A DNA stretch of 64,000 nt from a virus: positions 1 through 64,000 of IMG/VR virus record IMGVR_UViG_3300010371_000030. One strand, 5' to 3'. Position 1 is the first letter of the stretch. The number at the start of each line of letters is the position of its first letter. The notes under the pieces were generated by a model. The model was not told the origin of the DNA and did no database searches. It worked only from the letters and a program-made list of their open reading frames with translations. Positions 8,626 to 28,935 of this stretch are shown here, one piece after another. Made by a program: the position numbers and the translations under genes.

Positions 8626-8633
8626 CGTTCGCC

Positions 8634-12429: not shown

Positions 12430-15400
12430 CTACGCCGTCCCGCCTGCGCCCGATGAAGCGTCCACATCCAACTCGCCGCCATCCAGCACCTCGGCTCTCT
12501 TCAGCCACTCGACGCGACCGCCCGTGTACAGATACGACCATCCCCGCCGCTTGTCCGGCTGTCGCTCCAGTTCCAGCTTCAGGAGCCGCCCAGCCTTGAA
12601 CACGCGCTTGGCATCGACCCACACAGAAGCGAAGATGACCACCTCAATGTACCGAAGGTCGCCGCTGATCATACCGGCATACGCCATCAGACCGCCTTTA
12701 CGGTCGTACTTGAGCTTGACGTTGGTCACCAGTCCACAGAACACACCGCCGCCCTGTGAATGCCAGAACGCCTCGTTGGTGATGCGCAGGTTCGCCTTCC
12801 GCTCGTCGGGCCAAGGGTAGGTTACGGCCGGATGCTGGCCGCTGATCACGCGCTCCCACATCGTCATCGCCTCGCCGGAGCGAACGCGCGTGCGGAAGCC
12901 CTCCATGTCGACCGCGAACTGGACGCGTAGGGTGCCGGTGAAGTTGCTGGCCGTCGCGTGGACGAGAATGGCGGAGCCAACGCCTAGATCGATGATGGGA
13001 CGCAAGTCATCAAAGACATCGATGTCAAACTTGAATCTGTTCTGCTTACCACTCTTGTCTTCGATGTTGACGTTGGCGTACCGGGCGCCCCAGAACTGAC
13101 GCTTGCGCTCCAGCTCGGACGGGAGTTCACCGGTGTGGAAGTCGCCGATCTGGTTGTACTTGACTTCCACGACAACGCCAGCGACGAAACATCCCTTGTT
13201 GTCATAGTCCTTGAAGAAGTTCTCATCGCCCATGTCGGCAAGCTCGACACGCACCTGCTCTTCCATGAAGAGCTTGTAGGCGTCGATGGGGTGGTTGCCG
13301 AAGGCGAGCGGGTTGACCGATGAGGTCACAAACTGTCGCTCCTCATCGGTGTAGTCAGGAACGCTCTGTGCCTCTTCCAGCATCGCATCCAGAGCGTCCA
13401 CGGACTTCTGGCTGCGCGGCTTCGTCAACGTCCCCCAGTATCGCTCCATGTTATCCACGAGCCATCGGATGTTCGGGAACATGTCATCGAGTGCGCCTGC
13501 CTTGGCGAGCGCCGCGACGGCACCCCGGTTGCACTGACGTCGATCAACCCTGTCCGCAAAGTCGACGATGTCCGTGTACGGCTGCGCGGCGATGACCGCG
13601 GCTGCTGCCTTCTCGCCCACACCCTTGATGTCGACCAGCGAACCGCGAATGGCTCCAAGCCCGTCATCGATGCTGAACTGCTGATTGGACACCGAGACGT
13701 GCGGAGGGAGGAGCGGGATGCCATGGCGTTTGGCGTCCTTGGCGATCTGCTGGACGCGAATGCGGTCTGGCTCGTTACGCATCAACGCCCAGTAAAACTC
13801 CAACGGATAGTACACCTTGAGCCACATACACCAGTAGGCGATCATCCCATAGGCCGTAGCGTGGGACTTGTTGAAGCCGTACGACCCAAAGAAGGTGATG
13901 GCATCCATGATACGGTTCGCCACGTCCTTGGTCATCCCGGGCGTATGCTTGAGCGCCCCCTCCACGAAGGCTTCGCGCTCCCGTCCCAGCGTCTCGTCGC
14001 CGATCTTCTTGGCGATGGTCTTGCGCAGAGAGTCGGCGGTGCCCGGGGCGAAGCCCGCGATCTCAGTGAAGATGCGGATGACGTGTTCTTGGTACACGAG
14101 GATGCCGAGCGTATCCTTGGTGATCTCGGACACCATCGGATGGAAGTCGACCTTGGCCACCAGCGCTGGATTCTTCTTGCGCTCCACGTACTTGGTCGCC
14201 AGGCCGGAGCGCGACGTGCCCGGCCGGTTGAGAGCCGTCATCGCGGCGACGTCCTCAAACGTGTCGAAGTTGACGCCCATACACACCTTGTCGGCACTGG
14301 GCGTGTCGTACTGGAAGATGCCGCCGTAATCATGTGCCGTGAACGCTCCCAACACCCTCTGGTCTTGGAGGTCCACGTCCGCCACGCTCTCCATGTCGAT
14401 GACGCGGCCGTGTCGCTCCTCAATCGCCGTCAGGGCGTCGTGGATGACAGAGAGCGTTCGGAGCCCGAGGATGTCGAACTTGACGAGACCCACGGCGGCG
14501 ACTGCATACATGTCCGTAGCAGACACCACGACGTCGGCGCCATCGTGCTTCCGGACTTCCAGGGGGATGACGTCGGTGAGCGGCACCGACGAAGCGATGA
14601 CGCCGGCTGCGTGGATGCCCAGATTCTTGGCCATGCCCTCCAGGTGCTGAGCGTGATACAGCACCTTGGGATAGTCCTCATTGAACTTCTTACAGACATC
14701 GAAGTCCTTGAAGGAGTCCACGATGGTCTGGCTCGCTCGCTCGTCGCCGCTAGACCGCTCGATGATCGAGCTAGTCACTTGTCGCACCCTCATGAGCGGG
14801 ACGTCAAGCACCCGGGAGACGTCGATGAGACACTGCTTGCCGCTGAGCTTGCCGATGGTCGCGATCTGGCACACCTTGTCATCGCCATACGTCCGTCGGA
14901 TGTACTCGATGATCTCGTGTCGACGTCTGTCTTCAAAGTCCATATCGCAGTCGGGCATGTCGATGCGATGGGGGTTGATGAAGCGCTCAAAGATGAGCCC
15001 GTGCTCGATGGGGTCGATGGCCGTGATGCCGAGGAGATACGCCACGAGCGAGCCGGCCACAGAGCCTCGCCCCGGCCCCAGGACGTGACGCTGCTCCCGA
15101 GCGAAGGCGTAGATGTCGCGCACAATCAGGAAGTAGTTGACGAAGCCCTGGCGCTTGAGAGCGCCCATCTCGTGCTTCAGGCGCGCCGTGTAGCGCTGGG
15201 TGGCCTCGTTCATGTCGATGCCTTCGCGCGCAGCGTATGCGGCGACGCGTTGGGGCATATCACGCCATGCCCACCCCGTCAGACATAGATGCTTCAGATA
15301 CGCAAACGTGTCGTGGCCAAACGACTCCGGGATGCCCGGCTCCGGGAGAAGCGCCTTGCGCCAGTCCACGACCACCTTGGCCGTACATTGATCTGCGAAG

Positions 15401-16323
15401 GCGAGCGTGTTGTCCAGCGCCTTCTTGACGAGGTGGGAGGGCATGAACTCGTGGTGACGCGCGAAGGCTTCCGCCATCTCCTTGCGCCGCCTGAAGTGGA
15501 ACTCATTGCCATCGAACTTGAACCTGTTCGGGTCGTCCAAATTCGAGCCTGTACCAATACACAATAGAATCTCGTGGTGCTCCCAATCGGACTGCTCGAT
15601 ATAATGCGCATCCTGCGTGGCCAGGAGTCGGTCGGTGCCTCCGTAGCGTTCCGCGAGCTTGAGCATCAGGGCGTTGGCAACGCGTTGATCCGCGATGGCG
15701 TGAGGTTGAACCTCAAACCACAGGCGGTCTGCGAAGATGCCGTGAAGCCGGTCTGCGTACTCCAGCGCCTGGCGCCGCTTGCCGGCATTCCAGCTGTCGT
15801 TGACCGGACTCGACAGGCACCCCGTCGAGATCATCACGCCTTCGCTGTACTTCTCCAGCTCGTTGACGTCGATGCGAGGCTTGTAGTAGAAGCCCTCCAT
15901 GAAAGCGGCCGACGACAGCTTGTACAGATTCCGAAGCCCGACGTCATCCCGGGCCCACGCGCAGATGTGCCACCGATCGCGGATGCCCATCCGCTCCTCG
16001 TGGTTCTTGATCGCATCCTTGCACTCTGCCTTCTTGAGCCCCTTGGTGACCTCTGCCTTCTCTTCGTCCGTAAGCCCACGTCGGCGCATGTCCGGAGACA
16101 CGTAGAATTCGATGCCGTAGATGGGCTTGATCCCGTGCTCCTCGGTCGCCTCGTGGAGCTTCATGTAGCCACGCATCGTACCGTGGTCGGTGATGGCGAT
16201 AGCGCGATGGCCGCGCTCCTTGGCCGCCTTGACATAGCCTCCGATGGTCCCGCAACCATCGAGCTGGCTCATGTCGCTGTGTGTGTGTAGCGTTACAAAG
16301 TCATCGACTTCAGCCACGGCCAC
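12430..16323 (-). CDS. dnaE: DNA polymerase III alpha subunit (DnaE type, with PHP domain)
   Basis: A 1297-aa C-family replicative polymerase. The N-terminal PHP domain is present with metal-site motifs LHTHSDMS and AITDHGT near residues 13-50. The palm motif GPGRGSVAGS is followed by the catalytic PDCDMDFEDRRR at about 456-467. Fingers, thumb, helix-hairpin-helix (GVGEKAAAA) and an OB-like C-terminal part follow. The length fits bacterial DnaE. The start is GTG at 16323, overlapping the previous gene. No clamp or clamp loader is in the window, so it may use host or distant phage factors. PHP metal residues look intact, so proofreading by this domain is possible. Confidence 0.95.
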   Translation of the reverse strand: MAVAEVDDFVTLHTHSDMSQLDGCGTIGGYVKAAKERGHRAIAITDHGTMRGYMKLHEATEEHGIKPIYGIEFYVSPDMRRRGLTDEEKAEVTKGLKKAECKDAIKNHEERMGIRDRWHICAWARDDVGLRNLYKLSSAAFMEGFYYKPRIDVNELEKYSEGVMISTGCLSSPVNDSWNAGKRRQALEYADRLHGIFADRLWFEVQPHAIADQRVANALMLKLAERYGGTDRLLATQDAHYIEQSDWEHHEILLCIGTGSNLDDPNRFKFDGNEFHFRRRKEMAEAFARHHEFMPSHLVKKALDNTLAFADQCTAKVVVDWRKALLPEPGIPESFGHDTFAYLKHLCLTGWAWRDMPQRVAAYAAREGIDMNEATQRYTARLKHEMGALKRQGFVNYFLIVRDIYAFAREQRHVLGPGRGSVAGSLVAYLLGITAIDPIEHGLIFERFINPHRIDMPDCDMDFEDRRRHEIIEYIRRTYGDDKVCQIATIGKLSGKQCLIDVSRVLDVPLMRVRQVTSSIIERSSGDERASQTIVDSFKDFDVCKKFNEDYPKVLYHAQHLEGMAKNLGIHAAGVIASSVPLTDVIPLEVRKHDGADVVVSATDMYAVAAVGLVKFDILGLRTLSVIHDALTAIEERHGRVIDMESVADVDLQDQRVLGAFTAHDYGGIFQYDTPSADKVCMGVNFDTFEDVAAMTALNRPGTSRSGLATKYVERKKNPALVAKVDFHPMVSEITKDTLGILVYQEHVIRIFTEIAGFAPGTADSLRKTIAKKIGDETLGREREAFVEGALKHTPGMTKDVANRIMDAITFFGSYGFNKSHATAYGMIAYWCMWLKVYYPLEFYWALMRNEPDRIRVQQIAKDAKRHGIPLLPPHVSVSNQQFSIDDGLGAIRGSLVDIKGVGEKAAAAVIAAQPYTDIVDFADRVDRRQCNRGAVAALAKAGALDDMFPNIRWLVDNMERYWGTLTKPRSQKSVDALDAMLEEAQSVPDYTDEERQFVTSSVNPLAFGNHPIDAYKLFMEEQVRVELADMGDENFFKDYDNKGCFVAGVVVEVKYNQIGDFHTGELPSELERKRQFWGARYANVNIEDKSGKQNRFKFDIDVFDDLRPIIDLGVGSAILVHATASNFTGTLRVQFAVDMEGFRTRVRSGEAMTMWERVISGQHPAVTYPWPDERKANLRITNEAFWHSQGGGVFCGLVTNVKLKYDRKGGLMAYAGMISGDLRYIEVVIFASVWVDAKRVFKAGRLLKLELERQPDKRRGWSYLYTGGRVEWLKRAEVLDGGELDVDASSGAGGTA

Positions 16324-17161
16324 GCCTCGCCTTCAGCGCCTCTACATTGGCACGAACGTACTTGACTACATCGATCAGATCTTTGGGCCAGTCGCCGCCC
16401 GACTTGGACATCCAATCCAGGTAGCCGCCATCTTCCAGAACGATGTCGCTCAGCGACTTGCCCTTGTGCTTGCCGACGTTCATCACGGCGTCGGTGCCAT
16501 CCACAGACAGCGTATACCGCTTGTCCTTGGGGAACACAATCGTCGTGGGTGGAAGCGGCGCCGGGGGAGGGCCGAGGGGAACACCTCGGGACACGGCGGC
16601 AGCCTTGATAGCGTCTCGCTTGATCCTTGTGCGATCCTTCGACATAGCGCCGAGATCCACCCCGCCCGGCCGAGGCGAGTCAGGCGAGCGCGACGTGGGC
16701 GGCGGCACTTCCTCGCTGGCCTCGCTGGCGAACAAGGCAGACATCTCTTCATCGGACATCTCGCGCGACGGCAACGAAACCTTGGCAACTGCGACCAGGC
16801 CAATCTTCACAGCCGCGGCCTTGATCCGATTCACAGCCACCGGCACTTGCAGCGACGCTCGTTGCTTCGCCACGTCCACGCTCGGCTTGAATGGATGTGC
16901 GTACTTGACCGCATCTTCCAGCGCGGCGCTCACCTCGGGTCGCACGCTCCAGTCGCGCCCGCAGTAGGTGACGCAGCCTCTTAGGGTATGTTTGTTTGCG
17001 CTGCCCAGTTGCTCCGTTACACCGTCGAGAATGACAGTCATAACGGCGTGTCTGTAGAATGATTCCAGAGAATCGACGGACACGCCCGAAGGCGATTCGG
17101 GCTCGGACACAGATGCCGCTCCGGGCGCGAAGCGGCGGCGCATCTCTTCCAAGGAGGGCAT
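16310..17161 (-). CDS. Protein with EMRRRF N-terminus and C-terminal ExoX-like domain
   Basis: A 283-aa protein. It begins MPSLEEMRRRFAPG, sharing the EMRRRF motif with the protein at 6905-7498. The middle (about 125-205) is a Pro/Ser-rich linker. The last 70 residues contain VGKHKGKSLSDIVLEDGGYL followed by W and basic helices, the pattern of the small domain found at the C-terminus of exonuclease X and related phage proteins. No exonuclease catalytic domain (DEDD) is present, so it is not itself ExoX. It overlaps the polymerase start and may act as a replisome accessory factor. Confidence 0.62.
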   Translation of the reverse strand: MPSLEEMRRRFAPGAASVSEPESPSGVSVDSLESFYRHAVMTVILDGVTEQLGSANKHTLRGCVTYCGRDWSVRPEVSAALEDAVKYAHPFKPSVDVAKQRASLQVPVAVNRIKAAAVKIGLVAVAKVSLPSREMSDEEMSALFASEASEEVPPPTSRSPDSPRPGGVDLGAMSKDRTRIKRDAIKAAAVSRGVPLGPPPAPLPPTTIVFPKDKRYTLSVDGTDAVMNVGKHKGKSLSDIVLEDGGYLDWMSKSGGDWPKDLIDVVKYVRANVEALKARRGRG

Positions 17162-17183: not shown

Positions 17184-18248
17184 CTACTGGATCACGCGGA
17201 GGCGACGCCCGCTCCACGGGTCACGACCCCAGAACAGCTTCCGCTTGTCGGCGTGCTCGCCCATCGCACGCGCCGTCGCCTGGTTGTCGGCGAGTGTGCG
17301 TTGCTCGGGCGTGGCCTCGTGCGTGTAGTGGAGAGAGCACGGCGGCAGCTTGTCCTCGCCCGTGTAGCGGCGCCTGTTCTCCTCCATGAAACGGCACCCC
17401 ACCCACTCGGTCGGAGGCGTCGCCGTCGTGCCGTCGTACAAGCTCGGCGGGCCCTCCTTGCCCGACAGGCACGGAGGCGTCACCAGCGAGCTGAACACGG
17501 GATCCACCTTCTCCACCAGCTCCGCGATCATCCCCTCGATGATCGGCCCCCAGATGCCGAGCTGAAGAATCCAGCACCCACGCTCGCCCACGATGTGGCG
17601 GAGAGACTGGATGTTGAGGCTCCAGCTCATGCGGTGCTGCATCGCGATGGGGATCAGCTCGCGCGCATCCTCCATCGGGATGCCTTCCGCCACCATCTCG
17701 TTGTAGAGCGCCTCGGTCACCTCCATGTGGTGCGTCCACTTGGAAAGCAGCTCCGCCATCTTGGGGTGCTCCAGAATCGACTGCGGCACCCGATAGGCGT
17801 TGTCGCGCGCGAACGTGCCCATGTCCAAGATACGCGCCGACTGCGACCAGAAGCTGGACGTGGCCCGGTCCGGGATGATGTCGATGACCGTGTCGGCTCC
17901 GGAGCGCTCCGGCGAAGGCGAGACGCCGATGCGATGTCTCACCGCGTGCTCACGCCAGCTGACGCTGATGTTCTCGAACATGAACACGAAGTTGACGTGC
18001 TCGCCGATGGGGATGCCCTGGCGGATGACGGCCAGGAAGAGCTTGCGCACTTCGTCGGGGTGTACTTCGGCCTTGATCTGCTGCGGCGTACGCAGCGGCT
18101 TGTCCGTCTTGGACGCCTCCCAGATGGCGTACACCACCTCCATCGGGTCGCTGGTCCACGACATCAACGTGACCTTGGGCGTCTTGATCACGGGCTCCGG
18201 CTGTTCGTTGCTATCGAACACCACGGGCTTCTTCACTCTATCCGACAT
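17184..18248 (-). CDS. thyX: ThyX-like flavin-dependent thymidylate synthase, divergent
   Basis: A 354-aa protein of the ThyX type, which methylates dUMP using FAD, NADPH and methylene-tetrahydrofolate. The hallmark RHR is at 104-106 (REHAVRHRIGVS), followed by a long helix FWSQSARILDMG. A later NIQSLRHIVGERG matches the conserved nucleotide-binding helix. The usual motif RHRxxSxNExSxRY is not intact: after RHR the sequence reads IGVSPSPERSGAD. The protein is also longer than common ThyX (about 220-270 aa). It ends the cassette of kinase, aminotransferase and oxidoreductase genes. A changed product, such as 5-hydroxymethyl-dUMP, is possible but unproven. Confidence 0.82.
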   Translation of the reverse strand: MSDRVKKPVVFDSNEQPEPVIKTPKVTLMSWTSDPMEVVYAIWEASKTDKPLRTPQQIKAEVHPDEVRKLFLAVIRQGIPIGEHVNFVFMFENISVSWREHAVRHRIGVSPSPERSGADTVIDIIPDRATSSFWSQSARILDMGTFARDNAYRVPQSILEHPKMAELLSKWTHHMEVTEALYNEMVAEGIPMEDARELIPIAMQHRMSWSLNIQSLRHIVGERGCWILQLGIWGPIIEGMIAELVEKVDPVFSSLVTPPCLSGKEGPPSLYDGTTATPPTEWVGCRFMEENRRRYTGEDKLPPCSLHYTHEATPEQRTLADNQATARAMGEHADKRKLFWGRDPWSGRRLRVIQ

Positions 18249-18267
18249 GGCTGATCTCCTTGCTCTG

Positions 18268-19416
18268 CTACTGTCCGACGGCTGCGAGCGCTTCCCGCAG
18301 TCGCTTCAACCCCTCTTCCAGTTCGTCAGGACTGATGTTGAGGGGAGGAGTGATCTTGATGACGCCGACACCGCGCCGGAAGGCGCCGATGATCAGGCCT
18401 CTCTTCATGGCTTCGTTGGCCACATCGAAGATGCTTACATCGCAGTCGAAAGCGACCATGGCGCCGACGCGACGAATGGCGCCCACGTGCGGCATGCCCT
18501 CGATTCCCTTGGCGATGATCTGGCCCACGGTCTCCGGAACGCCTCGGTGGAGGTCCAGCCAATCCATCATCCCATCGATGGCGAGCATTCCGAGTCCGGA
18601 GCCACCGAACGTGGAGAAGTGGGTGCCAGGAGTGAATGCCTGGCTGTACGGCATCTCGGCCACGACCGCGGCCACCGGGAAGCCCATGCCCAGCCCCTTG
18701 GCGAACACGGAGATGTTCGGCCGGAAGTCGCCCCGGAACCTGTCAGCGTAGCTCATCGTGCCGGAGCGCCCCGCACCCGTCTGAACCTCGTCCCAGATCA
18801 CGGGCGCTCCGAGAGCGAAGGCACGACGGTGAACGGAGCGGAGCCACTGCTGATCATACGGGCGAACGTCGTTGGAGCACGCGACCGGCGACAGGAGCAC
18901 GGCGGCGCAATCTTCCCCGATGCCCCTGGGCTCGGTGAAGCGCTGGAATCCCTCCGGCAGCGGGCCATAGCCGTCCGTGTGATACGACGGGCAATCGCCG
19001 CTCGCCATCGAGGCGTACGTGCGCCCGTGATACGCCCCGGCGACCGTGTAGATGGTCGTACGCGCGTTCTGCTTGTCGATGTCCCATTGCCATCGTCGGG
19101 CGAGCTTGATCGCAGTCTCGATGCCTTCTGTCCCCGACGTACAGAAGAACACGTGGTCCATCTCCAACTTGGAGCAGAGGCGCGCCGCCAGCTTCTCCCG
19201 GAACGGCCAGTTGAAGATACACGGCACGTGGAACGGAACACTCACAGTTCCAGTCGCCGCACGATTGAGCATCTGCGAGTGCTCTGTCGAGTTGTATCCC
19301 AGCGATGCCGCTCCGCTATCGGCAAAGAAGTCGATGAACGCGCGACCATCCTGCGCATACAGAGTAGCGCCGCTGGCGTCCACGAAGGGAACGTCACGAA
19401 CGGTCACTGTGGACAT
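18268..19416 (-). CDS. Class-III PLP-dependent aminotransferase, copy 1
   Basis: A 382-aa fold-type I enzyme of the ornithine/GABA aminotransferase class. The phosphate-binding SGTEG is at 94-98, the Asp that holds the pyridine nitrogen is D209 (IWDEVQTG), and the Schiff-base Lys is K240 (FAKGLGMG). The downstream THFSTFGG loop is also typical. All catalytic residues appear present. Start and upstream stop overlap as TGATG at 19414-19418. It is clearly a paralogue of the gene at 19957-21093 (common DFF.D.G.AS.GYNSTE), with the kinase gene between them. The amine acceptor is unknown; it could be a nucleotide sugar, nucleotide or DNA-modification intermediate. Confidence 0.9.
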   Translation of the reverse strand: MSTVTVRDVPFVDASGATLYAQDGRAFIDFFADSGAASLGYNSTEHSQMLNRAATGTVSVPFHVPCIFNWPFREKLAARLCSKLEMDHVFFCTSGTEGIETAIKLARRWQWDIDKQNARTTIYTVAGAYHGRTYASMASGDCPSYHTDGYGPLPEGFQRFTEPRGIGEDCAAVLLSPVACSNDVRPYDQQWLRSVHRRAFALGAPVIWDEVQTGAGRSGTMSYADRFRGDFRPNISVFAKGLGMGFPVAAVVAEMPYSQAFTPGTHFSTFGGSGLGMLAIDGMMDWLDLHRGVPETVGQIIAKGIEGMPHVGAIRRVGAMVAFDCDVSIFDVANEAMKRGLIIGAFRRGVGVIKITPPLNISPDELEEGLKRLREALAAVGQ

Positions 19417-19973
19417 CAGATGCATTTCCAGATCTCCTGGTTGGCTCGCTTCAAGACGTCGGCCGGGGCGAGCGCTCCGGTGGGGATACGGCAAGGCATC
19501 CCAAACAGATGGTAGGACCAGTGTAGAATAGCATCCTGTAGCTGGTCATGACGAACGCGCATCATTCGACGCTCCGGGGCGAGCCTCGCGCTGGCGGTCT
19601 CGTGACTCACGGTCAGCACGATAGGAACGATGGTTACGCCCTCCAGTAGGCGCAACCAAACGCGGCACATGTCCGCTCCGATGCTCGGCGGGGTGCCGGC
19701 GTATGCCAGCCCCGACGGCAGCGAGCGGTCCAGGATGAACGACTGCCGCGCTGACAGCGCGCTGACAGCATCCGCGATGAACAGGTCCTCTACTGGCGAG
19801 TTGAAGGGCACGCGCAGACGCCGCAGAAGCTCATCGCCGCTGCCATTGTTCCCCCAGTGGCCCTTCCTGAAGGCTTGGAACGGCTTGAGCTCCACCAAGT
19901 CGTGTTGTTCCTTGAGGGCAGTGACCAGCGTGGACTTGCCGCCGCCGTTGACACCTTCAACGACCACGAGCAC
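19416..19973 (-). CDS. P-loop nucleotide kinase (thymidylate-kinase-like)
   Basis: A 185-aa kinase with a Walker A loop GVNGGGKST at 7-15 directly after the first strand, DRSLPSG in the middle (the DR dyad of deoxynucleoside-monophosphate kinases), and an Arg-rich lid region (SARLAPERRMMRVRH). These features fit dTMP kinase relatives, including the phage 5-hydroxymethyl-uracil DNA kinases. The start is GTG at 19973, inside the end of the upstream aminotransferase; the stop overlaps the next aminotransferase start. Whether it acts on dNMP or on modified DNA cannot be decided from the sequence. Confidence 0.82.
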   Translation of the reverse strand: MLVVVEGVNGGGKSTLVTALKEQHDLVELKPFQAFRKGHWGNNGSGDELLRRLRVPFNSPVEDLFIADAVSALSARQSFILDRSLPSGLAYAGTPPSIGADMCRVWLRLLEGVTIVPIVLTVSHETASARLAPERRMMRVRHDQLQDAILHWSYHLFGMPCRIPTGALAPADVLKRANQEIWKCI

Positions 19974-21093
19974 CGGACATCTCCCTGGCTGCTTCGTTCA
20001 TGATCGCCAACCCGTGCTCCAGCTCCGCGCGAACGATGTTGAGAGGCGGGGCAATCTTGACCGGGTTGGGCCGCCACGCTCCGAGGATGAGACCACGCTC
20101 GCCACAGAGCCGGGCGAACGATCGCGCGTCTCCTCGGATGTCGAAGGCGATCATCAGGCCAACGCCACGGACCGCCCGAACCCAGGAGCTGCGCTCCAGA
20201 TGCTCACGAAGCCATTCGCCATTCTCGTGAATGCTCTTCAGCAGCGACGGCGTGAGAGCATCGATCATGGCGTTGATGAACACCATCTGAATAGGATTGC
20301 CTCCGAACGTGGAGAAGTGCGTACCAGGGGTGAACGTGTCCGCCAACTTCTCGTTGGCGAGCGTCGCGCCGACAGGGATGCCCATGCCCAGCCCCTTGGC
20401 CAAGCATACGATGTCAGGACGCGGGCGCAGGTGGTTCCATGCTCCGGCGCGACCAGACCCGCTCTGGACCTCATCGAAGATGAGCACGATATCGTTGGCG
20501 TCTGCGTACGTTCGGAGCGCCTTCAGGAAGGCACGGCTGAGCACTCGGACGTCGTGGTGGCCGAACACAGGCGCCAGGAGGATGGCCGCGGCGTCGCGCG
20601 GAATCTCCTCCAGCTCGTTGAACTTGTAGAAGCCCTCCGGCATCGGGCCGAAGCCGTCCGTGTGGTATGGCGGCCCATCGCCCGCTGCGACCGTTGCCAG
20701 CGAACGTCCGTGGAAACCTCCCGCCATGGCGTAGATGTCCGACCGTCCGGTGCCGCGCTTGTGGTGCCATAGACGAGCGAGCTTGATAGCGGCCTCCACG
20801 GACTCCGCGCCGCTGCTACTGAAGAACACCTTGGACATGCCTGTCGTCGCGCAGAGACGACGGGCCGCCAAGTCGCGCTCCGGAAACGGGCAGATGTTCG
20901 GCACATGGACCGGGATGCCTTCCCTCACGATACGCACCATGGCCGCCGTGGCTTCCGTCGAGTTGTACCCCATCGAAGCGGTGCCCGTGTCGGTGAAGAA
21001 GTCCAGATGCTTCCGTCCACCATCGTCGATCAGGTATGGCCCTTCGCCGCCCACGAACAGATTCGGCTTGTATTCGACCGTCGACATCAGCAT
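19957..21093 (-). CDS. Class-III PLP-dependent aminotransferase, copy 2
   Basis: A 378-aa paralogue of the gene at 18268-19416. The PLP phosphate loop SSGAES is at about 93-98, the pyridine-nitrogen Asp is D207 (IFDEVQSG), and the Schiff-base Lys is K233 (LAKGLGMG). The THFSTFGGNP loop is conserved. The N-terminal parts of the two copies align well (MSTVE..., then DFFTDTGTASMGYNSTE), while the C-terminal halves differ more. This suggests an old duplication followed by specialisation. It begins just after the HAD-fusion gene, and its last codons overlap the kinase start. Confidence 0.9.
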   Translation of the reverse strand: MLMSTVEYKPNLFVGGEGPYLIDDGGRKHLDFFTDTGTASMGYNSTEATAAMVRIVREGIPVHVPNICPFPERDLAARRLCATTGMSKVFFSSSGAESVEAAIKLARLWHHKRGTGRSDIYAMAGGFHGRSLATVAAGDGPPYHTDGFGPMPEGFYKFNELEEIPRDAAAILLAPVFGHHDVRVLSRAFLKALRTYADANDIVLIFDEVQSGSGRAGAWNHLRPRPDIVCLAKGLGMGIPVGATLANEKLADTFTPGTHFSTFGGNPIQMVFINAMIDALTPSLLKSIHENGEWLREHLERSSWVRAVRGVGLMIAFDIRGDARSFARLCGERGLILGAWRPNPVKIAPPLNIVRAELEHGLAIMNEAAREMSGARGR

Positions 21094-21096
21094 GGT

Positions 21097-21993
21097 TTAG
21101 ATCCCCAACCAGGCCAGAACGGCCTGCCAGTCGTTGACGCGAGTGATGTTGGCTTGTTCGGGCATATCTCGATTGCGAGGAGTGTCGAACAGGAGTACAG
21201 GCACCCCGATGGCAGCCAAGGCAGTGGCGTTACGCGTGTGGTCCTCCACGAACGCCCGCGGCCAAGCGGGTTGGATATGGTGATAAACCGCCTCGCACTT
21301 GTCCTTATTGAAGAGCAGCAGATCGTAGGGCACATCGTGGCGCGTCAGCCAATCCATCGTATCGCCCTGAAGACGACGATACTGCCACTGGGGTCGCGCC
21401 GTGACGACCGCGATGGTGTACCCGTGCGCCTTGACCTTCCGGAGCGCTTCCGGCGCGCCTCGGACAGGAGGGCACCGGAGGAAGCCGCCCGATCTGTTCC
21501 ACTCGTCTTTGAACGCTTCCTCGTTGGCCTGGATCGCAGCCGGAGTGGCACCGTCGATGGCTTCCAGCAGGGCGCGCCATTCGCTAATGTCCACCACGAC
21601 GTCATCGAGATCCACGCACAGAAGCTTGGTAGTCGCTTCCAGACTCGTGCGCTCCGCCTCGGCTCGCGCCGTCGTGATCGCGGTCTTGCGACGGAACGCG
21701 TCCATCAGTTGTTCGGCGGTGATGCCGTTCAACTGTGCCCAAGCCAGAGCGCACTTGAATACATCGGCAACATCTTCCGCCGCGTCCATCTGAACGACGG
21801 CCGGCATACGCAGGAGGTGTCGCTTGTAGCCCGGAACGTGTCGCCCCAGGTCGGTGACTTCCTCGTGTGCTTGGGCCACTAGCTCGGTGGCGACGGTTCG
21901 CCGTTCGGCATCATTCAGCCCGGCCGGATCCAGCCCCAGTGCTTCCTGCTGCTCGCGTTGAAGCGTGTACATCTCTGACAGGCGATCACGCAT
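21097..21993 (-). CDS. All-alpha NTP pyrophosphatase fused to HAD-family phosphatase
   Basis: A 298-aa two-domain protein. The start at 21993 overlaps the FAD gene stop by 8 nt. Residues 1-110 are helical with the acidic pattern of MazG/dimeric-dUTPase proteins (HEEVTDLG at 43-50, AEDVADVF at 72-79). Residues 120-298 are a HAD hydrolase: DLDD at 128-131 as motif I, VVTARP as motif II, a Lys in FNKDKCE, and VEDHTRN as the acidic motif IV. Together they could turn a dNTP into dNMP and then a nucleoside. In phages with modified thymine such pairs remove dTTP or dUTP, which fits the cassette. Substrate is inferred. Confidence 0.78.
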   Translation of the reverse strand: MRDRLSEMYTLQREQQEALGLDPAGLNDAERRTVATELVAQAHEEVTDLGRHVPGYKRHLLRMPAVVQMDAAEDVADVFKCALAWAQLNGITAEQLMDAFRRKTAITTARAEAERTSLEATTKLLCVDLDDVVVDISEWRALLEAIDGATPAAIQANEEAFKDEWNRSGGFLRCPPVRGAPEALRKVKAHGYTIAVVTARPQWQYRRLQGDTMDWLTRHDVPYDLLLFNKDKCEAVYHHIQPAWPRAFVEDHTRNATALAAIGVPVLLFDTPRNRDMPEQANITRVNDWQAVLAWLGI

Positions 21994-23029
21994 AACGTTG
22001 CCAACCCCACTCGGAGCACATCGCGTACGCTCGCTCCAGAACGACATCCGCCGTTGCCCTTGGATCCCACTGCGCGAACCGACCGAGCGGCTGGATGTGC
22101 GCCGGCCAGGCGGGCTCTCTCTCCAGAGGCAGCAGATGCCCATTCAGCCCCTTGGCCACACGTCGGATGGCCCATCCGTTCGGGAACAGGAAGTTGAGAT
22201 CGCTAGTGAGACCGACGGTGATCCGCTCGTCGCCCTCGGGCCACGCTCCGTTGAACTCACACGCATACCCATCCTCAAACGGATAGATGCGGTGGATGAG
22301 CCCGTCCGGTGTATATGGCGTGTAGATGTAGTCCCACTGGCTGTACGGATCCTTGAGGGCGCCTGGAACCTTCTCACCGCCGCCAGCCACGATCTTGTGC
22401 GGCTCGATGTACACCACGTTGAGACGGATTGCGAGCGCATCCGGGAGCCGGAAGAACATCGCCCGCTGCGCCGCCCAGAGCGGCGCCGTCCAGATCAGGT
22501 AATCATATGGATACACCGCTCCAGAAGTGGCGGTGATCTCGGCGGGCTCCACCTTCGCCACGGCATCTCGCTGTACGAAGGCCTGCCGTTGTAGACGCTC
22601 CACGACGTCCGAAGCATCGCACCGGAGGGCGAGCCGAGCGCCCGTGGCTTCAGGATCGTTCATGGACTTGCCGCTGAACGACGGATCAGGCTCGGTCTGC
22701 CGTGTCTTCCTGTAGTGGTCTTGCTGGATGCGCTTGGCCGCTTCCGTTGGCATCCCGCGGAGCACATCCGGATACGCCTCCACCTTCCCCCGGAGATGGA
22801 TGCCGCCCATCACCGTGTACTGGGTGAATACACCGCCGATGTCGATGATCATCGACTTCATCTCATCGGACGCGTGGAGGTAGCGCAGACCGCCCGAGAG
22901 CCATTCGCCGCCGACGCGCCCTGGCTCCAGGACGATGGGCGACGTATGTTTGTGCTGCTTCGCCACGTAGTTGGCGATCAACCCCGCTACGCCAGCACCG
23001 ATGATGACCACTCTCATCTTGTCAGCCAC
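21986..23029 (-). CDS. FAD-dependent oxidoreductase (Rossmann-type)
   Basis: A 347-aa protein beginning with a dinucleotide-binding strand RVVIIGAGVAGLIANY (GxGxxG at about 11-16) and a downstream IVLEPGRVGG segment, as in amine oxidases, UDP-galactopyranose mutase and related FAD enzymes. A second FAD-contact region may lie around YDYLIWTAPLWA. I chose GTG at 23029 because GGAGG lies 5 nt upstream; the ATG at 23017 is an alternative. It is the first gene of the nucleotide cassette after the hairpin at 23051-23115. The substrate is unknown; oxidation of an amine or amino acid would suit the adjacent aminotransferases. Confidence 0.8.
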   Translation of the reverse strand: MADKMRVVIIGAGVAGLIANYVAKQHKHTSPIVLEPGRVGGEWLSGGLRYLHASDEMKSMIIDIGGVFTQYTVMGGIHLRGKVEAYPDVLRGMPTEAAKRIQQDHYRKTRQTEPDPSFSGKSMNDPEATGARLALRCDASDVVERLQRQAFVQRDAVAKVEPAEITATSGAVYPYDYLIWTAPLWAAQRAMFFRLPDALAIRLNVVYIEPHKIVAGGGEKVPGALKDPYSQWDYIYTPYTPDGLIHRIYPFEDGYACEFNGAWPEGDERITVGLTSDLNFLFPNGWAIRRVAKGLNGHLLPLEREPAWPAHIQPLGRFAQWDPRATADVVLERAYAMCSEWGWQRYA

Positions 23030-23122: not shown

Positions 23123-24043
23123 TCACTCCAGGTGACGGCCGTTTGCGACCGTGGACAAGTCGAGAATACCTGCTCTCACGGCGCGGTCTAGCGCCTCAGC
23201 CACGAGAGCTGCCCCGCCTTTGTCAAGGCGGTGGAATCGAACCTTGAACGCTCCGTCCCTGCCCGTGTAGTCTTCCGGACTCAAACGAGCCCTGTTCTGG
23301 AGGGAGAACATGCCGATGAATGATTTGTAGTCACAGGCGACACGCACCTCCAGCACGCCGTTGTTCGGACGGAAGTACATGGAAGTGACTGCCATACGTC
23401 CACCGTCGTCTGTCTTCATGTACAGTGAGCAGTATCCGCTCCGTGCGCGACGGTCGACCATGAAGAACTGCCCCGGCTCCGCCTCGCCCTGGCTCGTGGC
23501 CATGGTCCGGGCGAGGCGCGACAGGACGTTCTGCTGGTAGTGGTCGCCAATCTCCTCCACGATTCGGCGACCTTCGACGTTGGGCACGAGCTTGCCACGG
23601 GAAGCGCCCGGCTTCTTCACGACGAGCGGAGCCTTGCTCACGACCGACTTGACAGCAGAGCTGACAACGGCGGTGGCAGGACGGATGCCGCCTTGCGTTA
23701 CCAGCGGGGCGTGCGCCGCTACACCGTCCTTGATCTTGCAGCGAGCGATCGTGGTCGACACGGCTTTCTGTAGCTCGTCATCATCGCCAGCGGCGATAGC
23801 GTACGACGACACATGCCCGTCGGCGCCTCGGGCTCGCACAATCTGGATGAGCTGCGACCGCTCCAGCCGGTTGGAACGTCCGTAGATGCCGGTGGCGACG
23901 CATCGGTCACGATACACGCATGGCATCCGGTCCGCCTCCGTCTCGCCGGAGGGGGCGCCGTCGCACTGCTCATCGCCTCGGTGGTACGTGGCGACGCACA
24001 GCGGCATCAGCGTCTTGTTCCCCTTGTACGGTTGCTCACCCAT
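23123..24043 (-). CDS. Hypothetical protein, 306 aa
   Basis: The start at 24043 (MGEQPYKGNK) overlaps the sigma-factor stop by 8 nt; the longer frame is a shadow of that gene. The N-terminal 50 residues contain four or five Cys (PLCVATYH, EQCDG, PCVYRDRC), consistent with a metal-binding module. A Lys/Val-rich linker (about 130-165) separates this from a C-terminal domain of about 140 residues with alternating strands (GQFFMVDRRARSGYCSLYMK). I recognise no family. Its position directly after a sigma-like gene might point to a transcription-linked role, but that is speculation. Confidence 0.7.
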   Translation of the reverse strand: MGEQPYKGNKTLMPLCVATYHRGDEQCDGAPSGETEADRMPCVYRDRCVATGIYGRSNRLERSQLIQIVRARGADGHVSSYAIAAGDDDELQKAVSTTIARCKIKDGVAAHAPLVTQGGIRPATAVVSSAVKSVVSKAPLVVKKPGASRGKLVPNVEGRRIVEEIGDHYQQNVLSRLARTMATSQGEAEPGQFFMVDRRARSGYCSLYMKTDDGGRMAVTSMYFRPNNGVLEVRVACDYKSFIGMFSLQNRARLSPEDYTGRDGAFKVRFHRLDKGGAALVAEALDRAVRAGILDLSTVANGRHLE

Positions 24044-25058
24044 CTTGCACCTCGGCCGTATGCTTCCGCTTGGCGAGCGCCTTGTTGAGCTCGCCATACC
24101 AAGGCAAGTAGTCCGACACCTGTTTCCAGTGGCCAGCGACGCCGATGACTTCGCCCGTCCTGTGGTTGAACCGTCCCTCCAGCAGGAGCGTCGCTTGGCG
24201 CTCATCATCGAGCCGCAGGTGCACGATGGAGCCCCATTCGTAGTGCTCGATGATCCTGTGGATGTCGCCGTCCGACGTCGCATCGACAGCGGCACAAGGG
24301 CGTGCGTCCAGCTGTCGAGCGTCGATGAGCGTCTGGATGAACAGGACGTCGGCGGCCATGTCGCTCTTATACACCATCGGCCAGCGCCCGTCGCGCATCG
24401 ACGCCTCGATGATGTCGATGTATTCGGACTCCTCCAGGATGATGGTGAACAGTCGCTTGATCTTGTGTACAGACCAGTCGATCTCATTCTTGTTCAGCCC
24501 GAGGAAGCCACCGATGGCGTCGATGGTCGGACTCTCAATGCCCCTGTTCCTCATGTAGATCAGGAACGCTTCCGAGGGCTGCGATTGGCACTCGAACACG
24601 TCACGCTCCCGGCCAGACAGGGACATCATCAGCCGGAGGCGGAGCAGCCGGATGCGCTCGTCTGCTTCCGCGTGGAGGTACTCCGACTCTGGGCAGCCCT
24701 CGTCAGGCGGGTCAAGCAGAGGGTGCGACTCCATCGACTCCACGCTGTAGCGCAGCAGACGCTCGGAGCCGTCGGGAGACGTCACCACCACGTGCGGAGC
24801 CCTCATCTGCGCCGTCGCTGCGTACATCAGCCCGCACATCGCGTTCCTGATCACCCTTCGGGCGTAGGCTTTGATGCCGCCGCGGCTCTTGGCGTAATCG
24901 TAGTGCGGGAGCGACATCAGCAGAGCGATGCGCGCTTCCTGCTCAGCATCATCTCTGTCAACACCGAGCGCGCGGTGGAAGCGCTCCGACTCATCGCGGA
25001 TGACCCCCTCCACGTGCGGTACCAGCTCTTGGTACAGAGTGTCAAATGTAACGTTCAT
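24036..25058 (-). CDS. Divergent phage sigma-70-like transcription factor
   Basis: A 340-aa protein. Residues about 30-80 (DDAEQEARIALLMSLPHYD, then AYARRVIRNAM) match the region-2 pattern of sigma-70 proteins: an acidic DxxQEARI helix and an arginine-rich recognition helix. A second block (LMMSLSGRERDVFE, then IGGFLGLNKNEIDWSVHKIK) looks like region 4 with its helix-turn-helix. The C-terminal 110 residues are an extra domain. Start and upstream stop overlap as TGATG at 25056-25060. It probably redirects host RNA polymerase to phage promoters. The call is by pattern only. Confidence 0.66.
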   Translation of the reverse strand: MNVTFDTLYQELVPHVEGVIRDESERFHRALGVDRDDAEQEARIALLMSLPHYDYAKSRGGIKAYARRVIRNAMCGLMYAATAQMRAPHVVVTSPDGSERLLRYSVESMESHPLLDPPDEGCPESEYLHAEADERIRLLRLRLMMSLSGRERDVFECQSQPSEAFLIYMRNRGIESPTIDAIGGFLGLNKNEIDWSVHKIKRLFTIILEESEYIDIIEASMRDGRWPMVYKSDMAADVLFIQTLIDARQLDARPCAAVDATSDGDIHRIIEHYEWGSIVHLRLDDERQATLLLEGRFNHRTGEVIGVAGHWKQVSDYLPWYGELNKALAKRKHTAEVQDG

Positions 25059-27778
25059 CACGCTGCCCTCACGACCAGACGCTGCCCGAGCGCCGCGAAC
25101 AGCGTAGGGGCGAGCTTGTTCAGGTCCCTGATGATGATGTTCTTGGCGCCTGTGCGCTCGTTGTAGTAACTCCGGGGCGCCTCGGTCCCTGCGCCGATGC
25201 CCCACACCTCGATGCCAGCAGAGGTGATGGTGGAGACCGTCTGGATCAGATGCCGCTCCAACGTCGACCGGCTGATGCCTGGATGGCAAGGCTGGCCGTC
25301 CGAGATGACCACGAGGATGCGCCGCGCCTCGCGCCGCCCGGCGACACGACGGGCGGCGGCCATGACCGCCTCGCCATCGGCGTTCTGCTCGTAACCATGG
25401 ATGGCGACGAAGCGGTCACGGCACTGGGACAGGCGCTCATTCCAACCCTTGAAGATGGGGAACACCAGCGGCGCTCGGGACACATAGCCCTCGGGCGCTC
25501 GCTCCCAATCGCCGCCCGTCGGATGCGGGCGAGACTCGTGGTTGTAGAAACCGATGATCTCATACGGCACGCGGATGGCTTCCCACGCCTCGGCCAGCGC
25601 GATGGCGGTGCGCTTGGCGTAGTACGCGCAGCACTGGGAGTTGACGCGCGGATCACCGATGGGGTCAGACGGGCCCATCGAGCCGCTGAGGTCAATAAGC
25701 ACCTCGATGGCCGTGTCAATGGCCATCTTCTTGGAGATGTCCGTGAACACGTTCCGGTCGCCCATCCGGACGTTGGCGAGCGCATCGTCATCGAGGCGCC
25801 CAGCGTCGAGTCCGGGCAGAACGCGCCGCCGCGTCATCGTCTGGAGCTGCGACTGCTGCTTGCCCCGAAGCGCTCCGATCTGCGAGCTGACGTCGTCGTA
25901 CGCCTTGCTGTAGTTGTCCAGCGCCTTGTTCTTGTCCGCACAGTACGGCGATGACGCCTGCTCGAATCGGTCCAGCTTCTGTGCCTCGGGATTGGGAACG
26001 TAGCGATGGTGCCGGTCCACATCCTCCTGGATAGTCCGCTCCATCTCTTCCTTGGCGATGTCAAACAGATCATCCGTGGTGACGTCGTCGCCCAGCGCGT
26101 GCTCCGCCTCGGGCGCCAGCTCCAGACGCGGGATGTCCAGCGCGTCATCGCCCGTTCCAGGCGCCTCGCTCGCTTCGCCCGGCTCCATCGGCATGTCCAC
26201 GTCGCCATCGGGTCCATCCGGCTCACCTTCGGACGCCTCGGGATCGCTCGCCCCTTCCTCGCCCTCGCCCGGCTCGCCCGCGGACATCTCCGCTCCACCT
26301 TCCGTGCCTTCGCCGTCCGCCTCCATCGCATCGCCCATCTCAGGGTCGCGCACGTCGTCGGCGGCAGCTTCCTCACTGTCCCCGTCGCCTTCGGGCTCGC
26401 CATCCTCGCTCGGCTCCGGCTCCGCCTCGGCAGGTTCGCCTTCCGTGCTCTCCTCGCCATCTGCGGGCTGGTCCTCGCCTTCGATGGCCTCCGGCTCCTC
26501 GCTCATCTCCGACGGCTCGCCTGCCTCTTCGCCCTCGGCCGGCTCGGAATCTTCGCCCGGCTCCGGCTCACCCTCGGCCGGTTGCTCGTCGCTGTCACCG
26601 TCTTGCTCACCTTGGACAGCTTCCCCCTCCTCACCATCCCCCGGTCCATCGGCATCGTCGCTCGTTGCTTCGCTGCCATCGTCTGCGTCAGCGTCGCCAT
26701 CGGCGCCTTCCGTGTCCTCATCGGCAGCCTCATCGCTGCCTTCGGCCGGCTCCTCGGAGGCTTCCGGGGCGCCCTCGGCCGACTCATCGCCGGTCTCAGC
26801 ATCCGCATCGCCCTCGGGCTCCGCGGTCTCCTCGCTGACAGACTCGCCATCCGAGTCATCCCCGCCGTCACTGCCTTCGGACGCCTCAACAGCCTCCTCG
26901 GCCGGCTCCTCGCCCTCACCATCGGCTTGTACGGCGTCACCGTCGGGCGTCTCCATCTCCTCGCCGGACGCCTCGGGCTCGCCATCCTCGCTCGGCTCCG
27001 GCTCGCCTTCATCGCGGCCATCGTCGGATTCCGGCGATGCCGGAGGCTCCTCGGACTCCGGTGCCGCTTCCGGCTCGGGCGGCGGTGCGGGCTTCTCTGC
27101 CTCTTCCTTCGCCGCCTTGGCCGCCTCCGACACCTTGTCGAAGGTACGCCGGGCGAGCGCTTCGCAGTCCTGGACCCACAACGCCTTCGCCACATCGGCG
27201 ATCTCATCGGCGACCAGATCCACGTACGGCTGAACGTCCGAGCGGACCCAGCCGACGTCCAAGCCGTCGGCGCGGCAAATGATCGCACAACCCAGCTCCA
27301 TCCAGAAGCTAGTGCGCGACTTCTCCTTGGCCGTCCGAGCCCGGAACGCCTGGATGAGCTCCACGTTCTTGGCAGCCAGGTTCTCGCCCATGCCAGGGTA
27401 GCGCGCGCCGTACTTGCGCTCAATCCGGATGTCCTCGTAAGCATTCGTCAGCATCGAGACGATGCGCGCCATCCGCGTGTTCGGCGAGCGGATGCGCTTG
27501 AGCGCGCTGATGGGCGTCTCGCGTCCGACTTCCTCGTGCGCTCGCTCCTCCATCACGTGCGACAGCTCGTGGTCGAGATGCCCATGAAGCTTCTGGCGCT
27601 TGTCCTCGGGCAGATGGTCGGCCGTGAACGGGATCCAGATGCGCTTGCCGTCTGTCTGGCACTTCATGCCGCTGGGGATGATCTCGACGTTCCAGTTGCC
27701 CGACATGACACGGGCAATCTTCCCGAAGGGACCGGCGAGGCCCAGCAGCTCGGGCGCGATGGTAGTGGAGCGAGACAT
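25058..27778 (-). CDS. CobT-like VWA-domain protein with very long acidic linker
   Basis: A 906-aa protein in three parts. Residues 1-225 are a globular domain containing an HLDHELSHV motif, a possible metal site. Residues about 230-560 are almost wholly Glu/Asp/Ala/Ser/Pro/Gly repeats. The C-terminus (about 690-906) is a von Willebrand A domain with an intact MIDAS: DLSGSMG at 696-702 and SDGQP near 826. This layout matches CobT-type proteins, which pair with a CobS/MoxR AAA+ ATPase. That partner is the gene immediately upstream (27781-28935). In cellular systems such pairs insert metals or remodel complexes; the phage role is not known to me. Confidence 0.85.
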   Translation of the reverse strand: MSRSTTIAPELLGLAGPFGKIARVMSGNWNVEIIPSGMKCQTDGKRIWIPFTADHLPEDKRQKLHGHLDHELSHVMEERAHEEVGRETPISALKRIRSPNTRMARIVSMLTNAYEDIRIERKYGARYPGMGENLAAKNVELIQAFRARTAKEKSRTSFWMELGCAIICRADGLDVGWVRSDVQPYVDLVADEIADVAKALWVQDCEALARRTFDKVSEAAKAAKEEAEKPAPPPEPEAAPESEEPPASPESDDGRDEGEPEPSEDGEPEASGEEMETPDGDAVQADGEGEEPAEEAVEASEGSDGGDDSDGESVSEETAEPEGDADAETGDESAEGAPEASEEPAEGSDEAADEDTEGADGDADADDGSEATSDDADGPGDGEEGEAVQGEQDGDSDEQPAEGEPEPGEDSEPAEGEEAGEPSEMSEEPEAIEGEDQPADGEESTEGEPAEAEPEPSEDGEPEGDGDSEEAAADDVRDPEMGDAMEADGEGTEGGAEMSAGEPGEGEEGASDPEASEGEPDGPDGDVDMPMEPGEASEAPGTGDDALDIPRLELAPEAEHALGDDVTTDDLFDIAKEEMERTIQEDVDRHHRYVPNPEAQKLDRFEQASSPYCADKNKALDNYSKAYDDVSSQIGALRGKQQSQLQTMTRRRVLPGLDAGRLDDDALANVRMGDRNVFTDISKKMAIDTAIEVLIDLSGSMGPSDPIGDPRVNSQCCAYYAKRTAIALAEAWEAIRVPYEIIGFYNHESRPHPTGGDWERAPEGYVSRAPLVFPIFKGWNERLSQCRDRFVAIHGYEQNADGEAVMAAARRVAGRREARRILVVISDGQPCHPGISRSTLERHLIQTVSTITSAGIEVWGIGAGTEAPRSYYNERTGAKNIIIRDLNKLAPTLFAALGQRLVVRAA

Positions 27779-27780
27779 GT

Positions 27781-28935
27781 TCAGACCGTCCCTCCAAAGT
27801 GACGCTGGATGATCGCCGCGATGGCCTTGGAGTCATCATCCGGTAGCTTGTTGAGGATAGTGATCTTGGCGGCACGGCTAACATTGGAGAAGCGGACCGC
27901 CTTGCGCGCCCAAGCGATGAGGCGCCGAGGCGAGAGAGACACCATCGTCTGCTGGTTACGTTGCGCCTCGCGCACCTTCATCGCCACCTGGACCATCTGC
28001 TCGGCCCACGACTGTCGAAGCCCTGGTGCCTTGGACATCAGGATCTTCTGTTCCGCATCGGGCTCGGGATAGTCCATCCGGATGACGGTCTGAAACCGAT
28101 CCAGCAGCGCCTCGTTCATCGGCCCCGTTCCAGCGTACAGGCCGGAGTCGTCGCCGTAGCCGAGCGTGTTGGCCGTGGCGATGAAGCGGAAGTGCTCATG
28201 GAACGACACCTCGGTGCCGCCCGCCCGATCCATCAGCATCAGCTGGCGATGCTCCTCCAGCACAGGATGTAGAACGAAGGTGACCGTGGGTGGCGCGGCG
28301 TCGAATTCGTCAGCCAGGAACCAGTGCCCGCGTTGCGCCGAGTCCGGCAGCGGACCGTCGGTCCAGGAAGTGATCGCCTGTCCGCTCGCTTCGTCCACGC
28401 GCAGGTCCTTGCCTCCCACGAGGCTTCCGAGCCGCATCTCACCGTTGAAGGGACAGCGTCGGAGCGGCTGATCCACGATGGCCGCCAACTCGCGCACGAG
28501 GGTGGTCTTGCCGAGACCGGGCGGCCCCACGATCAGGACATTCTCCTTGTCCTGGACCGCCAACGCCAGCTCCTCCAGCGCCGCCGTTTCGTTGGGACCC
28601 ATCTCCCACTGCTCGTCGTGGATGGGGATGTATGCCCTGTCGTATCCGTCCAGATCCTCACGCCGCGCAAGCGTCGCGACGCCGAACTTGAAGACGTTCC
28701 CAGGAGAGGCCACGGCCACGGGCGTCTCAACGTCCGGCGCGGAGGCGGCCTTGGCGTTGGCCTTGCCCGTCTCGGAAGCGAGCGGAGCACCAGGGTACTT
28801 CTTCAAGTACGCCCTGGTGTTCATCTTGTGGACGGAGGACAAGTGCGCGTCCAGGCGGTGGTACCACAAGTTACACTCGCGGCACTGGACCTTCTCTCGC
28901 CCGGCGCTGTCCCGTCTGTCGTGTGCGTCGCCCAT
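27781..28935 (-). CDS. CobS/MoxR-like AAA+ ATPase with N-terminal MucR-like zinc finger
   Basis: A 384-aa ATPase. Residues 18-36 form a C2H2 finger (C18, C21, H31, H36) followed by NTRAYLKKYPGAPL, the pattern of MucR/Ros-type domains. The AAA+ core has Walker A GPPGLGKT at 137-144, Walker B FLADE, and a sensor-1-like ATANT. The pairing with the VWA gene directly downstream, 2 nt away, is that of CobS-CobT. A cobS-like gene is known in cyanophages, but here the full pair is present. It could remodel a protein complex or help insert a metal. Confidence 0.88.
   Translation of the reverse strand: MGDAHDRRDSAGREKVQCRECNLWYHRLDAHLSSVHKMNTRAYLKKYPGAPLASETGKANAKAASAPDVETPVAVASPGNVFKFGVATLARREDLDGYDRAYIPIHDEQWEMGPNETAALEELALAVQDKENVLIVGPPGLGKTTLVRELAAIVDQPLRRCPFNGEMRLGSLVGGKDLRVDEASGQAITSWTDGPLPDSAQRGHWFLADEFDAAPPTVTFVLHPVLEEHRQLMLMDRAGGTEVSFHEHFRFIATANTLGYGDDSGLYAGTGPMNEALLDRFQTVIRMDYPEPDAEQKILMSKAPGLRQSWAEQMVQVAMKVREAQRNQQTMVSLSPRRLIAWARKAVRFSNVSRAAKITILNKLPDDDSKAIAAIIQRHFGGTV

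Follow-up and report, generated by a model that had tools for sequence, protein, structure and literature searches.

A conserved phage gene cassette with an abnormal ThyX, and its possible part in making a non-canonical deoxynucleotide

The cassette and its conservation

The stretch of DNA analysed here (the window) comprises bases 1-64,000 of the 105,832-bp phage record IMGVR_UViG_3300010371_000030. It carries, as a single unit upstream of dnaE, the genes for a variant ThyX, two class-III aminotransferases (AT1 and AT2), a thymidylate-kinase-like (TMK-like) protein, a fusion of an NTP pyrophosphatase (NTP-PPase) with a deoxyribonucleotidase (HAD) and a small flavoenzyme (FAD). The order of transcription, on the minus strand, is FAD, HAD, AT2, TMK-like, AT1, ThyX, g015, dnaE:

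21986..23029, minus strand: FAD, a small flavoenzyme of about 340 amino acids in the amine oxidase / protoporphyrinogen oxidase (PPO) / UDP-galactopyranose mutase (UGM) superfamily (DAO and NAD_binding_8 signatures, AF2 model, Foldseek, orthologues at all cassette loci)
21097..21993, minus strand: HAD, an NTP-PPase (EExxE..D..K) joined to a 5'(3')-deoxyribonucleotidase-like HAD domain (PF06941 NT5C, 5.1e-9; family profile; alignment)
19957..21093, minus strand: AT2, an ArgD-like aminotransferase of class III (fold type I) and, of the two, the one nearest to the single aminotransferase of the relatives (PF00202, 1.9e-68; identity to the aminotransferase of relative L005; tree)
19416..19973, minus strand: TMK-like P-loop kinase, with DRS replacing DRY (PF02223; family profile against the PDB; alignment)
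18268..19425, minus strand: AT1, a second class-III aminotransferase, peculiar to the window phage (PF00202, 5.8e-54; alignments)
17184..18248, minus strand: variant ThyX, with an insertion that splits the RHR..S.R motif, Ile for Tyr91 and an added C-terminal domain (PF02511, 8.7e-20; Foldseek; residue table; alignment)
16310..17161, minus strand: g015, which lies between ThyX and dnaE and has a weak ExoX-like motif at its C-terminus (PF20600, 1e-5, below cut-off)
12430..16323, minus strand: DnaE, DNA polymerase III alpha (43-61% identical in relatives; adjoins the cassette in complete loci)

All six cassette genes have family support and the cassette is confirmed as real. The sequence-only reading of this DNA had described six closely spaced genes of these families, and the family matches bear this out once the starts and overlaps are corrected. 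Judged by homologues in relatives, HAD starts at the ATG at 21993 and AT1 starts at 19425, which reduces the overlaps between neighbouring genes from 80-160 nt to about 8-17 nt. The flavoenzyme starts at 23029 (GTG) or 23017 (ATG). The cassette runs on into g015, which has partial matches in some relatives and is not conserved in all, and into dnaE. The high G+C of this region also produces long spurious open reading frames on the plus strand between 12430 and 23092 (e.g. 20905-21882 and 17800-19515), which are not genes.

Besides the window, 17 contigs from distantly related uncultured phages (duplicates merged) carry FAD, HAD, AT, ThyX and TMK-like genes as one block, which adjoins dnaE wherever the contig extends far enough. 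The FAD-HAD pair comes first at every cassette locus and the remaining order varies: ThyX-AT-TMK in 12 contigs, AT-ThyX-TMK in four, AT-TMK-ThyX in one, and AT-TMK-AT-ThyX in the window. Across the 17 other contigs the cassette proteins are roughly 25-60% identical, and the G+C content of cassette contigs, where measured, ranges from 39 to 63%. The cassette is conserved among phages, and the ThyX within it is abnormal; the presence of the block in 17 other contigs, contiguous though reordered, excludes chance, and a gene order that changes while contiguity is kept is as expected for a pathway.

These loci were found with alignments. A search with the alignment of the two aminotransferases matched eight contigs, one with five FAD orthologues matched 24 loci and one with ThyX matched 35 loci, while back-translated scans with the single FAD, ThyX and AT1 proteins gave no matches. 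We found no cultured relative with the cassette, TerL identity to cultured phages being at most about 29%, and no earlier description of the cassette in the literature searched. Aminotransferase matches in annotated phage records were mostly cellular argD, astC and bioA genes; many other records carry no annotation.

The inheritance of the cassette was followed by a profile search in nine cassette records of near-full length and in two relatives that lack it (G006 and G007). The AT, HAD, ThyX and TMK-like genes are present in all nine and jointly missing from the two, which have ordinary thymidylate kinases. In G007 the flavoenzyme is accompanied by its ordinary kinase and a MazG/PRA-PH-like pyrophosphohydrolase. 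In the dnaE tree G006 and G007 fall outside the clade of the cassette phages, though their branches are long, and the TerL and portal trees do not resolve their position; the trees are compatible with joint gain and with joint loss. Beyond the cassette genes themselves, no further gene family is universal in the nine records and absent from the two. The known gene set could therefore be complete without a transferase that acts on DNA.

Altered catalytic residues in ThyX and its partners

The ThyX of the window belongs to the ThyX family by its Pfam match and by fold (Foldseek to 1o26 and others), and at 53 bits it misses the NCBIfam thyX cut-off of 88. We numbered its residues by alignment to Thermotoga ThyX and compared 15 sequences from the cassette group, with four more from an unrelated phage group. 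The residues that contact dUMP and FAD (R78, H79, R80, S88, R90, R147 and R174) are invariant in all 15. The position of Tyr91, in contrast, is Ile or Leu in every one of them, and that of His53 is mostly Arg. The RHRxxSxxxxSxR motif is interrupted by an insertion of 18-26 residues in 19 of 19 sequences, the four from the unrelated group included, and a C-terminal extension of about 100 residues carries the invariant cysteines Cys260, Cys285 and Cys304. Tyr91 and S88 are described as conserved among ThyX enzymes and as assisting methylene transfer; the Y91A substitution slows carbinolamine consumption more than 100-fold (PMC8316439). With the dUMP and FAD residues kept, Tyr91 lost and the motif interrupted, the variant ThyX seems competent to bind both ligands, while its methylene chemistry looks altered. 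Compared with ThyX proper, and with PolB of polyoxin biosynthesis, it shares the fold, PF02511, the RHR and the ligand residues, and differs at positions 91 and 53, in the insertion and in the extension with its three cysteines.

The same variant occurs in a second phage group, with genomes of 45-49 kb and a family-A-like polymerase. Here the genes ahead of it encode a nucleoside 2-deoxyribosyltransferase-family protein and a YfbR-like HD 5'-nucleotidase, and sometimes also a radical-SAM protein or a kinase. We considered a Z-genome (2-aminoadenine) explanation for this group and rejected it: PurZ (PF00709) is absent from the 14 records searched, and 14 of 14 control genomes were positive. A scan of 84,980 bacterial and archaeal genomes by short peptide patterns confirmed no variant ThyX. 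The subfamily with the insertion was thus found here in phages only, and is common to two unrelated phage groups. Some contigs hold more than one member of the family: L087 has two side-by-side ThyX genes (7778-8686 and 10016-10960), of which only the second has the insertion, and L093 also has two ThyX-family genes close by each other.

Both aminotransferases have the Aminotran_3 fold, and they are 44-45% identical to each other. AT2 is 50% identical to the aminotransferase of L005 and groups in the tree with those of other phages. AT1 forms a long branch and retains the catalytic Lys and the PLP residues. Two aminotransferases occur in the window phage only, and 17 of 17 relatives have one. 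The paralogous pair described in the sequence-only reading is therefore present in the window and does not define the cassette, and we set aside a heteromeric pairing of the two since the relatives make do with a single enzyme. Across the family the PLP lysine, Asp and HGR are present, the His of HGR being Ala in one of 16. By sequence these proteins are nearest to the ArgD/ornithine group, yet they fall below every family cut-off listed, that of ArgD included, and the E..QGE substrate-gate motif of ArgD-type enzymes is replaced, with neither Glu in any of the 16. Their substrates probably differ from those of the ArgD/ornithine type.

The window TMK-like protein is a P-loop kinase nearest to thymidylate kinase (PF02223 1.1e-5, slightly below the curated cut-off; 10 of 15 family members match PF02223). 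The family profile, run against the PDB, finds YorR (1.9e-10) and TMK (1.6e-8). The kinase is present in all complete cassette loci and keeps its P-loop; where thymidylate kinases have DRY it reads DRS, the R being retained. In the HAD fusion, an all-alpha NTP-PPase-like region stands ahead of the HAD domain. The fusion-family profile matches human cytosolic deoxyribonucleotidase (1.1e-5) and the MazG-type structure 2q73 (4e-4), and both halves, the MazG-like and the 5'(3')-deoxyribonucleotidase-like, carry their catalytic motifs. The flavoenzyme has a Rossmann signature (DAO 5e-4; NAD_binding_8) and an AF2 model with a pLDDT of 90.5. Its Foldseek matches in the PDB are UGM, L-amino-acid oxidase (LAAO), PPO, and nicotine and polyamine oxidases, with E-values of about 1e-12 to 1e-14. 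On this model, it has the amine oxidase / PPO / UGM fold in a compact form.

What the cassette may make

In the known thymine hypermodifications with amino side chains, the side chain is assembled on DNA that already contains 5-hydroxymethyl-dU. Two enzymes acting on hydroxymethyl-dU in DNA are needed for this route, a DNA kinase and a transferase of the amino acid:DNA type, and the sequence-only reading had drawn its analogy from there. We took marker families for this route from phage M6 and searched 19 records, namely the full record of the window phage and 18 that are related or share its ThyX. The amino acid:DNA transferase (PF18724; M6 control 2.3e-48), the helical domain of the 5-hmdU DNA kinase (HMUDK_hel, PF18723; 1.4e-57) and the ThyA-type synthase or dUMP hydroxymethylase (PF00303; 5.5e-20) are all absent from the 19. 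M6 is positive for all three. The cassette is therefore not a member of the thymidine-hypermodification system, and the detailed analogy to it lacks support; the missing transferase, which the same reading had reported for the window, is missing from the full record too.

The cassette has some likeness to the ADDT/HMUDK type of system (Pseudomonas phage M6, Salmonella phage ViI and Delftia phage phiW-14). In both, a pyrimidine synthase, a kinase, a PLP enzyme, tailoring enzymes and nucleotide-clearing enzymes lie near a polymerase, and in M6 the ThyA-type synthase adjoins a YfbR-like gene, as the variant ThyX does in the second phage group. In contrast, the PLP enzyme of M6 has the PALP fold where the cassette has class III, and the cassette kinase resembles a mononucleotide kinase. 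Base replacement at the nucleotide level, as in phages T4 and SPO1, instead joins a dNMP-modifying synthase, a dNMP kinase and enzymes that destroy the ordinary nucleotide. By its gene content, the cassette would share this logic of synthase, kinase and clearing. It differs in using the ThyX family rather than a ThyA-type hydroxymethylase, in having an NTP-PPase/HAD fusion as putative clearing enzyme, and in adding an aminotransferase and a flavoenzyme. By this comparison, the cassette would work more like the T4 and SPO1 systems, except that the synthase is another one and that amine chemistry comes on top. That it is a coherent nucleotide-modifying cassette, in which an abnormal ThyX is joined by nucleotide-destroying, kinase and amine-handling partners and which matches no named system, is the part of the earlier interpretation that our results support.

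Our favoured reading, which we hold at a little under even confidence, is that the product of the cassette is a non-canonical thymine-like deoxynucleotide, probably with an amine, that is completed as a mononucleotide and that the phage's own DnaE uses either instead of dTTP or together with it. What we observe are the genes, how they are conserved and linked, and the altered catalytic residues; every reaction in the following scheme, and the base itself, we infer from sequence and structure. The variant ThyX, with reduced flavin and methylene-folate, would place a one-carbon unit at C5 of dUMP. With Tyr91 gone and its active-site loop remodelled, the enzyme would not reduce the exocyclic-methylene intermediate to methyl; water or an amine would trap it instead. 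For amine trapping and flavin-dependent trimming, the tRNA-modifying enzymes MnmEG and MnmC offer a chemical precedent (PMC9626948). The flavoenzyme and the class-III aminotransferase would then convert the added carbon between alcohol or amine, aldehyde and primary-amine states, the simplest product being 5-aminomethyl-dUMP by way of 5-hydroxymethyl- and 5-formyl-dUMP. The TMK-like kinase would phosphorylate the modified dNMP, host NDK would complete the triphosphate, and the NTP-pyrophosphatase/deoxyribonucleotidase would clear the competing ordinary nucleotide. Within this reading, about a third of our confidence goes to 5-aminomethyl-dU as the exact product. The modified base of the sequence-only reading is thus plausible and is strengthened by the conservation and residue evidence, its production being still an inference.

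Some observations weigh against this reading. The flavoenzyme is kept beside dnaE in G006 and G007 without AT, ThyX, HAD or TMK-like genes, so its role may be separate. Its fold is also equally near to UGM and to the amine oxidases, with UGM, LAAO, PPO and the polyamine oxidases scoring alike. The ThyX proteins of Pbunavirus and Wifcevirus, which we presume to be thymidylate synthases, likewise lack Tyr91, and its loss therefore need not mean new chemistry. Lastly, cassette phages avoid T-containing palindromes, e.g. GATC and CTCGAG, which one would not expect if their DNA were fully protected. The DNA of phage M6 is reported as modified, yet M6 likewise avoids T-containing palindromes, and avoidance as a proxy for modified DNA was dropped as not discriminating.

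Ordinary thymidylate supply is an unlikely alternative that deserves a serious hearing. Here, the variant ThyX would still make dTMP, the fusion would be a dUTPase or nucleotidase, the kinase a TMK, and the aminotransferase and flavoenzyme separate auxiliary metabolic genes. The intact dUMP-binding residues of ThyX are consistent with it, as are the occurrence of ThyX beside DnaQ and DnaE in the distant Pbunavirus and Wifcevirus and the two genomes with a flavoenzyme and neither ThyX nor AT. It does not sit well with AT, HAD, TMK-like and ThyX being gained or lost jointly and staying one block while reordered, with the loss of Tyr91 and the conserved active-site insertion, or with DRS in the kinase, and a dNMP phosphatase would oppose dTMP supply. 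A role in amino acid, polyamine or sugar metabolism, where the ArgD-like aminotransferase and the amine-oxidase/UGM-like flavoenzyme would remodel a nucleotide sugar or the arginine or polyamine pools of the host, we consider very doubtful. The aminotransferases are nearest to acetylornithine/ornithine aminotransferases, the flavoenzyme fold takes in UGM and polyamine oxidases, and one relative (L035) has a UDP-sulfoquinovose synthase inserted. However, no further gene for arginine, polyamine or sugar metabolism turns up repeatedly in the block, the ArgD-family cut-offs are missed, E..QGE is lost, and the constant partners are nucleotide enzymes.

A closer variant of the favoured scheme, which we rate as improbable, takes tRNA modification as its model. 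In this case ThyX would couple the exocyclic methylene of dUMP directly with an amino acid or a polyamine, giving a bulkier 5-(substituted aminomethyl)-dUMP; the aminotransferase would make or edit the amine, and the flavoenzyme would trim the product. The precedent is MnmEG, in which an amine (glycine, or taurine in mitochondria) traps the flavin/folate methylene on uracil C5, with MnmC carrying out a flavin-dependent cleavage (PMC9626948). The DAO-type signature of the flavoenzyme and the resemblance of the aminotransferase to omega-amine enzymes of the ArgD/ornithine type point the same way. Against this, the amine substrate is hypothetical, and in the fold search no amine oxidase stands out from the other matches. 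The likeness to MnmE/MnmG and MnmC, which act on the tRNA wobble uridine, is a mechanistic analogy only.

To return to the favoured reading in its fullest form, a repurposed ThyX and an aminotransferase would give a complete mononucleotide-level pathway by which a whole family of uncultured phages builds its DNA from an amino-substituted thymine analogue, without a DNA-level transferase. We advance this only tentatively, with rather more doubt than belief. If true, an amine-bearing thymine analogue finished before polymerisation would be a biochemical solution unlike the known DNA-level ones, ThyX would be shown to do more than methylate, and the pathway would be a source of enzymes for the production of amine-tagged DNA.

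Neighbouring genes and further observations

Three genes lie upstream of the cassette in the window:

27781-28935: MoxR/CbbQ-type AAA ATPase
25058-27778: CobT-like vWA protein
24036-25289: sigma-70-region-2-like protein

The MoxR-AAA, CobT-vWA and sigma-like genes are in eight of the nine cassette genomes and missing from G006 and G007, and hence are not universal. Elsewhere in the genome of the window phage (L002:17257-17790; record 80257-80790) is a circularly permuted YpsA/SLOG-family protein (PF12694, 3.8e-20).

Some relatives have additional genes within the block. A methyltransferase-like protein (ELFGGSGWH...HADFN), its family unassigned, is inserted beside ThyX in the cassettes of L034 (11847-12650), L036 (11890-12702), L038 (13024-13776) and L039 (6430-7200), and a fragment of it stands ahead of ThyX in L067. 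The UDP-sulfoquinovose-synthase-like gene of L035 lies within the cassette at 12612-14027 (NCBIfam 4.2e-146, below its cut-off).

The ThyX genes of Wifcevirus and Pbunavirus (L014 and L015), both cultured phages, adjoin DnaQ/DnaE and have Ala at the Tyr91 position. In several relatives DnaE has an in-frame insertion of about 250 amino acids past the finger domain (e.g. L005 12982-17742 and L011 12028-16740); for these two, the Pfam and NCBIfam scans gave no intein match. The DnaE of L040 (17561-19716) has an interruption of about 2.1 kb. These insertions and the interruption are possibly inteins or an intron.

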